A DNA stretch of 32,736 nucleotides. Origin: Bacteroidota bacterium. GTDB lineage: Bacteria > Bacteroidota > JABWAT01. The DNA lies in the NCBI GenBank assembly GCA_017303995.1, contig JAFLBE010000006.1, positions 1-32,736 on the forward strand, given 5' to 3'. Of this stretch, positions 8,564 through 30,805 are shown one piece after another. Each line of letters opens with the position of its first letter. The stretch's first letter is position 1. Below the pieces are notes generated by a model, which had not been told where the DNA came from, searched no databases, and saw only the letters and a list, made by a program, of their open reading frames with translations. The position numbers were made by a program, and so were the translations under genes.

Positions 8564-8620
8564 TAAAATGGTAAAGTCTCAAAATACAACCAAAATGGCA
8601 TTTTTGCACGGGGAATTACA

Positions 8621-8787
8621 AAATGCTTAACCACAGAGGACGCAGAGTTAGTCACAGAGTTTTGTTGAGTGAAGGCTTTTGTTTTTGAAGGAAAAAATCC
8701 AAATCACTTATTTTGAAGAATTTTGTTTTCCTCTGTGAAAAACTCTTGTCCCCCTCTGTGGTTAGCGTATTTCCTGAAATTCAATGC
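8621..8787. repeat. Gene-less repeat unit A (terminal inverted repeats)
   Basis: A unit of about 167 bp starts with AAATGCTTAACCACAGAG and ends near CTCTGTGGTTAGCGTATTT followed by CCTGAAATTCAATGC. The two ends are imperfect inverted repeats; a second inner pair (GTCACAGAG and CTCTGTGAAAA) extends the complementarity to about 37 nt, so a single strand could fold into a long hairpin. It abuts unit B as a direct repeat. Confidence 0.85.
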
Positions 8788-8957
8788 AAAATGCTTAACC
8801 ACAGAGTAAACAGAGTTAGTCACAGAGTTTTGTTGAGTAAAGACCTTTTTTTTGAAGGATAAAATACAAACGAATTATTAACCGAAGAATTTTATTTTCC
8901 TCTGTGTTTAACTCTTGTTCCCCTCTGTGGTTAGCGTATTTCCTGAAATTCAAAACA
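8788..8957. repeat. Gene-less repeat unit B
   Basis: A unit of about 170 bp, closely similar to unit A and in the same orientation. It has the same ends (AAATGCTTAACCACAGAG and CTCTGTGGTTAGCGTATTT). Its middle, around CGAATTATTAACCGAAGAA, matches the two sequences that flank the GxxExxY gene in unit C when these are joined, which shows where the gene would sit. Confidence 0.85.
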
Positions 8958-9557
8958 AAATGCTTAACCACATAGTAAACAGAGTTAGTCACAGAGTTTA
9001 CTTAAGTAAAGACTTTTTATATTTTTGTTCATTCCCGATAAAATTCAAATCAATTCGTCAGAAAAATGTTAATCAATCAATTGACTGAACAAATTTTGCA
9101 TTGTGCATTTAAAGTTCATGCAGAACTTGGCCCCGGACTTTTGGAAAATGCTTACGAAGAATGTTTGTTTTATGAATTAAGACAATCCGGGTTAAACGTT
9201 GAAAAACAAAAAGTATTGCCATTGGTTTATCACGACGTTAAATTGGAATCAGGGTACCGAATTGATTTATTGGTCGAAAATCGGGTCATTGTAGAAATAA
9301 AAGCTGTGGAGGCTTTAAATGATGTACATACTGCTCAGGTTCTGACCTATTTGAAATTATCAAAATGTAAAATCGGCTTACTCCTGAATTTCAATGTAAC
9401 CTCACTCAAATTTGGAATAAAAAGGCTAATTTATTAATCCTGGTGATTTTTATAACAAGTCCATTCCCACCGAAATTATTAACCAAAGAATTTTGTTTTC
9501 CTCTGTGAAAAACTCCTGTCCCCCTTTGTGGTTAGCGTATTTCCTGAAATTCAATGC
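8958..9557 (+). mobile_element. Repeat unit C carrying a GxxExxY gene
   Basis: The left half of the repeat unit (8958 to about 9060) and the right half (about 9470 to 9557) are separated by a complete gene at 9066-9437. The outer ends are the same inverted repeats as in units A, B and D (TTAACCACA... and ...TGTGGTTAGCG). This is the arrangement expected of a small gene-bearing element with shorter gene-less relatives next to it. No transposase is present, so mobility is inferred from structure only. Confidence 0.6.
9066..9437 (+). CDS. GxxExxY protein (PDDEXK_3 nuclease-like fold)
   Basis: The product is 123 aa with the family signature GPGLLENAYEECL (GxxExxY at about residues 24-30). A downstream RIDLLVENRVIVEIKA segment has the D-x(n)-EIK arrangement of the PD-(D/E)XK nuclease superfamily; the family is classed as PDDEXK_3. 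The length matches the full family length. The biochemical role is not established. The gene lies inside one unit of a repeat cluster, with the left half of the unit upstream and the right half downstream; genes of this family are often found embedded in such CACAGAG/CTCTGTG repeats. ATG at 9066 is preceded by an A-rich stretch and no clear Shine-Dalgarno site. Base composition is more AT-rich than the genes on either side. Confidence 0.9.
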   Translation: MLINQLTEQILHCAFKVHAELGPGLLENAYEECLFYELRQSGLNVEKQKVLPLVYHDVKLESGYRIDLLVENRVIVEIKAVEALNDVHTAQVLTYLKLSKCKIGLLLNFNVTSLKFGIKRLIY

Positions 9558-9744
9558 AAAATGCTTAACCACAGAGGACGCAGAGGTAGGCACTGAGTTT
9601 TGTTGAGTAAAGACCTTTTGTTATTGATGGATAAAATTCAAATCAATTAGTTTGGAATATTGTATTGAATCAACTTCCCAGAACTGTTTTCCTCTGTGAT
9701 TAACTCTTGTCCCCCTCTGTGGTTAAAGCATTTCCTGAATTCCA
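9558..9744. repeat. Gene-less repeat unit D
   Basis: A fourth unit, about 187 bp, same orientation, directly after unit C. It begins AAATGCTTAACCACAGAGG and ends CTCTGTGGTTAAAGCATTT. The centre is more diverged, but the stretch AAATTCAAATCAATT is identical to the sequence just before the GxxExxY gene in unit C. Confidence 0.8.
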
Positions 9745-10819: not shown

Positions 10820-10840
10820 TCTTCGTTTCACTACGATTTC

Positions 10841-10875
10841 TAACTTCTAACTTCTAACTTCTAACTTCTAACTTC
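10841..10875. repeat. Perfect heptamer array TAACTTC x5
   Basis: Five exact, contiguous copies of TAACTTC lie between the acyltransferase and the membrane protein genes. It is the only perfect member of a set of 7-nt-period arrays in this window. Confidence 0.9.
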
Positions 10876-10905
10876 ATTTACCATTAACCATTAAGAATTA
10901 ATCCC

Positions 10906-16236: not shown

Positions 16237-16255
16237 TTAATGGCTTTTGTTTTTT

Positions 16256-16390
16256 ATTCCCCTCCTTTTCCAAAGGAGGGGCCAGGGGTGGTTTTAATTT
16301 TCTTTTGACTGTAAATAAACCAAACCACCCCGCCTTCGGCACCCCCCGAAAGCGTTCGGGGCAGGCTCTCCTTTAGAAAAGGAGGGGAAT
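16256..16390. repeat. Nested inverted-repeat element, about 135 bp
   Basis: The outer arms ATTCCCCTCCTTTT and AAAAGGAGGGGAAT are inverted repeats, continued inward by GGGGTGGTTT and AAACCACCCC. Each arm also folds on itself: CCCCTCCTTT-TCC-AAAGGAGGGG on the left, and CTCCTTT with AAAGGAG on the right. The right arm has an extra block with CCCCGAAAGCGTTCGGGG. It fills the gap between the receptor and importer genes and may affect readthrough. Confidence 0.85.
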
Positions 16391-16441
16391 ATTTCTTTCT
16401 GACCACCCCAAAGCTAGTTCGGGATCTTCGCCGCGCTCGAC

Positions 16442-30729: not shown

Positions 30730-30805
30730 TGGATTCCCGCCTTCGCGGGAATGACATTGTGGGCTTTTTATTAAGAGGTGTCATTCCCGCGAAGGCGGGA
30801 ATCCA
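30730..30805. repeat. Perfect 27-bp inverted repeat
   Basis: Two 27-bp arms (30730-30756 and 30779-30805) are exact reverse complements, separated by 22 nt. Each arm contains the near-palindrome ATTCCCGCCTTCGCGGGAAT. It lies between parC and the downstream operon and may affect parC transcript ends, although no T-run follows. An open frame crossing it is not a gene. Confidence 0.9.

Follow-up and report, generated by a model that had tools for sequence, protein, structure and literature searches.

GxxExxY genes are bracketed by inverted arrays of short iterated words, and different clades of the protein possess different, private words—the main fact of this analysis, and one that the first-pass annotation could not see. 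The words on the two sides of a gene usually match each other, and they follow the protein clade; gene-less and empty states of the same units occur as well, and the catalytic residues of the protein are intact.

In the window (the whole stretch of DNA analysed, 32,736 nucleotides from a Bacteroidota bacterium), the repeat array that had been described at 8621–9744 proved to be real, with four units in tandem and a complete GxxExxY gene inside the third. The direct repeats D1–D3, whose starts lie 168, 169 and 601 apart, define these four units (A–D), and unit C is about 430 bp longer than the others because the open reading frame at 9066–9437 lies within it. The features of the array are as follows.

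8619 to 9744, no strand assigned: whole tandem array, with units, linkers and the end inverted repeats AAATGCTTAACC / GGTTAAAGCATTT
about 8627 to 8765, forward strand: unit A, a gene-less hairpin with inward words CACAGAG at 8632 and 8653 and CTCTGTG at 8731 and 8754
about 8795 to 8934, forward strand: unit B, a gene-less hairpin with words at 8800 and 8821 and at 8900 and 8923, interior CGAATTATTAACC
about 8964 to 9536, forward strand: unit C as a whole, gene-bearing
8964 to 9065, forward strand: left arm of unit C, first word mutated to CACATAG, second word CACAGAG at 8990
9066 to 9437, forward strand: GxxExxY (PDDEXK_3) gene in unit C, 123 aa, by profile matches, with E27, D67, E77-x-K79 and Q91xxxY95 intact
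9438 to 9536, forward strand: right arm of unit C, with CTCTGTG at 9501 and a mutated outer word, CTTTGTG
about 9565 to 9727, forward strand: unit D, gene-less, with words at 9570 and at 9692 and 9715

The terminal inverted repeats exist and are longer than had been given (AAATGCTTAACCACAGAG at 8.62 kb versus CTCTGTGGTTAAAGCATTT at 9.73 kb). They are not a product of chance, since TTAACCACAGAG (at most one mismatch) has 90 matches in the genome versus 22 in the reversed control; hairpin folding scores z = -4.4 for unit A and z = -5.4 for unit B. A common sequence had also been proposed for the gene-less units at the point occupied by the gene; this is clear in unit B (CGAATTATTAACC), where unit C has CGAAATTATTAACC at the corresponding point immediately to the right of the gene, but units A and D differ there. 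The interior of unit D resembles that of unit C up to and slightly beyond the start codon (74% over 58 nt), a likeness too weak past that codon for unit D to be claimed as a deletion derivative retaining the gene start. Linkers of about 30 bp are common to all four units, which indicates that the array grew by tandem duplication and rules out four independent insertions. The array lies between a histidine kinase gene and an acetyltransferase-like gene. In a relative of the same family (L229) only a short intergenic region, free of the repeat, separates these two neighbours, and in a relative of the same genus (L227) the downstream gene likewise has no repeat ahead of it, so that the array was either gained at this site or lost from it elsewhere.

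Other repeats were observed in the window. At 30730–30805 lies a perfect inverted repeat of 27 bp (TGGATTCCCGCCTTCGCGGGAATGACA), its arms 22 nt apart; it resembles a palindrome found in many bacterial genomes and could represent a further dispersed repeat family. At 16255–16391, a 24-bp inverted repeat (TATTCCCCTCCTTTTCCAAAGGAG, 96% complementary, arms 89 nt apart) resembles another gene-less hairpin unit, and a short tandem CTAACTT run sits directly after an acetyltransferase-like gene (10838–10876).

The association between gene and repeat turned out to be general, as we observed on surveying 80 GxxExxY loci from GTDB genomes of nine phyla, including an archaeon, 76 of which had enough flanking sequence. 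At 58/76 loci the word CRCRRAG lies in both 300-bp flanks and points towards the gene, about 30-fold above the local background and with a strong orientation bias; in the 100 bp nearest the gene on each side its density was ~1.8–1.86 per locus versus ~0.06 per 100 bp beyond, reaching background within ~300 bp of the gene. Searches that presupposed no word agreed: inverted 7-mers found de novo reached a score of at least 8 at 32/76 loci versus 10/542 shifted controls, and a wider search over 191 loci recovered such 7-mers at 38% versus 0.3% of shuffled flanks. At CRCRRAG loci the word recurs with a period of 8–12 bp (modes 9 and 10), and the word nearest the gene sits, at the median, 28 bp upstream of the start codon and 14 bp downstream of the stop codon. 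Genes without CRCRRAG often carry another iterated word in the same layout—TTAACC, words, gene and mirror image—such as CACGAAA (e.g., L193), ACAGAAG, CACTAAG, CACATAG (e.g., L197), CACGAAT, CGCAGTG, CGCAATGG (e.g., L040), CACAGATT or CATATAAG. CACAGAT (e.g., L185) and CAGGAT (e.g., L034) are further iterated words of such genes, and about a quarter of the loci have no assignable word. Both arms had the same majority word at 71/99 loci, as compared with 18.9 expected by permutation. The gene does not always occupy one fixed internal point, as had been supposed: at L034, L035 and L053, for example, it lies between tandem units. Four loci (L155 in G091, L168 in G197, L052 and L073) each have a pair of tandem GxxExxY genes inside a single repeat array, from which it follows that gene-bearing units duplicate in tandem too. 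On contig 30 of genome G161, near L129, a GxxExxY gene has next to it a run of CACAGAT words that recur at 47-bp intervals on one strand, and all 39 matches in that genome are on one strand.

The word tracks the clade of the protein rather than the host, and this holds even among the paralogs of a single genome. Across 16 genomes with paralogs of different word classes, and based on a FastTree topology, heuristic word calls and some rare classes, we counted 25 word-class changes on the protein tree versus a mean of 32.8 when words were shuffled among same-genome paralogs; none of the 2000 paralog-restricted shuffles gave as few as 25, the minimum being 26. This result for paralogs within one genome argues against a gene that simply lands in any repeat its host happens to possess. 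In the source genome, all five GxxExxY genes lie between iterated inverted words, and these words differ: CACAGAG in two genes, a mixture of CGCAGAG and CACAGAG in one, and two variants of CAGGAT in the remaining two. Iterated CAGGAT, matching the word of the latter two paralogs, is dispersed at 42 places in this genome versus 0 for the control. The dispersed copies of the array's repeat elsewhere in the genome have only the ~35-bp ends in common with the array units, and not the interior. The alignment columns that differ most between the RRAG and RGAT clades are 113, 116, 112, 85 and 8; this residue–word covariation was set aside as evidence of specificity, being confounded by phylogeny.

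The abundance of dispersed repeats was also compared across the phylum to which the window belongs, in 198 genomes (99 with and 99 without the gene) that owing to relatedness are not fully independent of one another. The CRCRRAG repeat CRCRRAGNNNCRCRRAG was counted 730 times versus 76 for the control in the gene-positive genomes, and 169 versus 160 times in the gene-negative ones. An excess of at least 8 occurred in 25/99 gene-positive and 0/99 gene-negative genomes, and all 17 genera with such an excess carry the gene (p about 5e-5). The CRCRGAT repeat CRCRGATNNNCRCRGAT (438 versus 119) displayed the same trend, with exceptions. Part of the excess adjoins the gene itself and is not dispersed (e.g., in G193). 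The chief exception, genome G148, contains at least 67 CRCRGAT double words (e.g., L344 and L348) and, above the cut-off, no cognate gene for GxxExxY; it does retain a C-terminal GxxExxY remnant directly followed by CACGAAG words (L351), a different word from CRCRGAT. Repeat abundance thus depends on the presence of the gene for CRCRRAG, and tends to do so for CRCRGAT. The earlier proposal that the nuclease is tied to the spread or maintenance of the repeat gains support from the former, where no excess occurs without the gene, and is weakened by the exceptions to the latter.

Gene-less derivatives and empty sites could be followed at an orthologous site in 30 Nostocaceae genomes. Five loci hold the complete element (L284, L286, L288, L293 and L313), L285 has it cut to the first 29 codons, only the bare hairpin TTTAAACGCAGAGTAACTTTTTGCTGCGTTACTCTGCGTTTAAA remains in L287, a remnant persists in L294, L297 and L303, and L301 and L307 are empty—a comparison between species that does not separate gain from loss. 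In L289 the element has collapsed, relative to L288, by deletion at a 4-bp CTAA microhomology; a gene-less unit need not be a transposed remnant, since this junction arose by deletion in situ. The planctomycete G204 carries one and the same internal deletion of the gene (residues ~37–80 missing) on two contigs, the copies being 88% identical over ~500 bp including the arms, with no likeness beyond in the stretches compared; alike within unlike surroundings, they represent one deletion derivative in two copies at different places. End-sharing gene-less copies of the kind that had been likened to MITEs therefore exist in Nostocaceae and in G204, but units A, B and D of the window are local tandem copies. 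Moreover, the target duplications that had been suggested as a check were visible neither in the window nor at the source-genome units nor at the Nostocaceae site. Near the latter, L300 (genome G262) carries a solo hairpin (TGCAAAGACGCAAAGTTCTTCTGAACTTTGCGTCTTTGCG) with a word spacing of 8 bp; the Nostocaceae element found elsewhere at the site neighbouring L300 has a 10-12-10 spacing.

The protein encoded in the window is a full-length GxxExxY protein that matches TIGR04256 (E 7e-47, 158.6 bits, cut-off 35) and, over its full length, PF13366 (E 3e-44, 150.5 bits, cut-off 22), and these only; no HUH/Y1 tyrosine transposase domain was detected. The catalytic residues E27, D67, E77 and K79, together with the QxxxY motif (Q91, Y95), are conserved in 98–100% of 193 genes. 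No relative was found in the PDB by sequence. An AlphaFold2 model (mean pLDDT 96.4) had as its closest solved folds Cas4 SSO0001 (E 2.5e-3, TM 0.55), lambda exonuclease, LHK-Exo and RecE, none below 1e-3, and profile comparison gave a weak similarity to Cas4, consistent with the fold matches. Taken from sequence and model together, the protein is best read as a predicted minimal RecB/Cas4-like PD-(D/E)XK nuclease. None of 50,697 phage records contained a GxxExxY match, on which ground a phage origin was rejected, and matches occurred in 8 of 72,556 plasmids. The family has a name and a fold class, but in the open-access literature we found no description of its function; of 5.39 million papers two mention it, both incidentally and neither about repeats. 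For the long iterated repeat words that literature offers no microbial context, the single match being a paper on cardiac connexin. Judged on that literature alone, GxxExxY-linked repeat elements appear, provisionally, to be undescribed.

We consider it probable that the GxxExxY nuclease binds its own word and drives the spread of gene-less units, in a manner similar to REP/RAYT systems with an unrelated enzyme. The window would then contain one copy of such an element, tandemly duplicated, with two inward arms around one nuclease gene, each arm repeating a 7-bp word at intervals of roughly one helical turn. The protein would bind the word of its own clade on the phased duplex array and cut or resect DNA at the arms or at their hairpin; host repair could then copy, duplicate, prune or rearrange the element, and gene-less units with the same word would become more numerous and be retained as trans substrates. 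Recognition, word binding, cleavage and mobility are steps that we infer, as is protein-driven spread; what is visible is presence and absence between species, and no movement event was observed. Repair-mediated copying fits better than classical transposition, given the tandem arrays, the deletion at a microhomology and the missing target duplications.

Several other explanations were weighed against this element reading. The protein might instead be a domesticated DNA-repair or chromosome-maintenance nuclease whose words serve as address sites or operators that selection maintains and that ordinary duplication and recombination, not the nuclease, have spread. RecB-family enzymes are mainly repair enzymes, the Nostocaceae site retains gene and words over a long divergence, and the gene is almost absent from phages and plasmids; however, several paralogs in one genome whose words differ, a patchy presence, frequent deletion derivatives and relics suit selfish elements better, making domestication rather unlikely. 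We regard as improbable that the gene is a passenger, inserted into or captured by repeats that a different enzyme, for instance a Y1 (RAYT-type) transposase, mobilises. The source genome does have seven Y1 transposase genes, some repeat-rich genomes lack a cognate GxxExxY gene, and REP-like repeats are known to move in trans (PMC3116915). Yet the seven Y1 genes are located elsewhere and none is bracketed by words, on which ground a Y1/RAYT driver was rejected, and a passenger is also at odds with a word that tracks the GxxExxY clade within genomes and with the absence of a CRCRRAG excess from gene-negative genomes.

The arms could also act as RNA, with a transcribed hairpin serving as a guide or structural RNA in the manner of HEARO/IscB-like or Cas4-linked systems, as the hairpin scores of units A and B and the Cas4-like fold would allow. 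Helical-turn spacing and word-level identity, in contrast, fit recognition of duplex DNA; the words of the two arms show no clear gain in similarity when compared in register instead of out of register, so that register pairing was dropped as a sign of a selected hairpin, and a search of Rfam gave no family at threshold, only sub-threshold chance matches. Taken together, a role as RNA seems very improbable. Finally, many arms lie directly after stop codons, where hairpins are common, and chance inverted words might arise from intergenic hairpins or from base composition near short genes. Such an artefact is hardly credible given that word density falls to background by ~300 bp, that reversed-pattern, shifted and shuffled controls fail to reproduce the words, and that the words are common to both arms and clade-specific.

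More tentatively than for the element reading itself, GxxExxY genes could be the autonomous partners of bacterial and archaeal miniature elements, with a minimal RecB/Cas4-like nuclease that recognises a clade-specific 7-bp word, iterated at helical spacing, and spreads its own arms without known transposase chemistry. If so, many unexplained microbial repeats of the CCACAGAGG, CCGCAGAG, CCACGAATT and ATCCTG types would be gene-less offspring of GxxExxY elements; a very common family would acquire a testable function, and several abundant dispersed repeat families a likely source. Should the word code be real, each GxxExxY protein would have its predicted DNA target beside its gene, providing hundreds of natural specificity pairs. 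The system would also constitute a second, unrelated solution to the REP/RAYT lifestyle and provide evidence that mobile or self-maintaining elements can be built on a Cas4-like nuclease.

Among known systems, the Cas4 / lambda exonuclease / RecB nuclease family resembles the GxxExxY protein in providing the closest solved folds, at modest significance, and in the motif order E..D..ExK..QxxxY; GxxExxY differs in being only ~123 aa long and encoded by a stand-alone gene inside its own repeats, and the window showed no CRISPR genes next to it. As with MITEs and autonomous insertion sequences, gene-less units share the ends of the gene-bearing unit and internal-deletion derivatives occur, end-sharing gene-less copies being present in the window only as tandem copies. 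However, GxxExxY elements have neither a DDE-type or other known transposase nor target duplications, and their arms are iterated, whereas a MITE has a single terminal repeat. REP/RAYT systems (for REPINs, see Bertels and Rainey 2011, PMC3116915) combine a gene between inverted cognate repeats with dispersed gene-less repeats, repeat–protein co-evolution and a repeat number tied to the gene (PMC2817692). GxxExxY loci correspond closely to this description in layout and genomics: the gene is similarly flanked on both sides by inverted cognate repeats, gene-less repeats are dispersed, repeat and protein co-evolve, and repeat number is tied to the gene for CRCRRAG and, as a trend with exceptions, for CRCRGAT. 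In contrast, the GxxExxY protein is of the RecB/Cas4-like PD-(D/E)XK type and RAYT is a HUH/Y1 transposase; its arms are 7-bp words iterated at 8–12 bp, unlike the one short palindrome with a GTAG tag of REP; and its elements occur in nine phyla including an archaeon, the origin of RAYT having been placed after the branching of the gammaproteobacteria (Nunvar 2010, PMC2817692). Because the bracketed gene does not encode the defining HUH/Y1 enzyme, the GxxExxY system is an analogue of REP/RAYT rather than a member of it.
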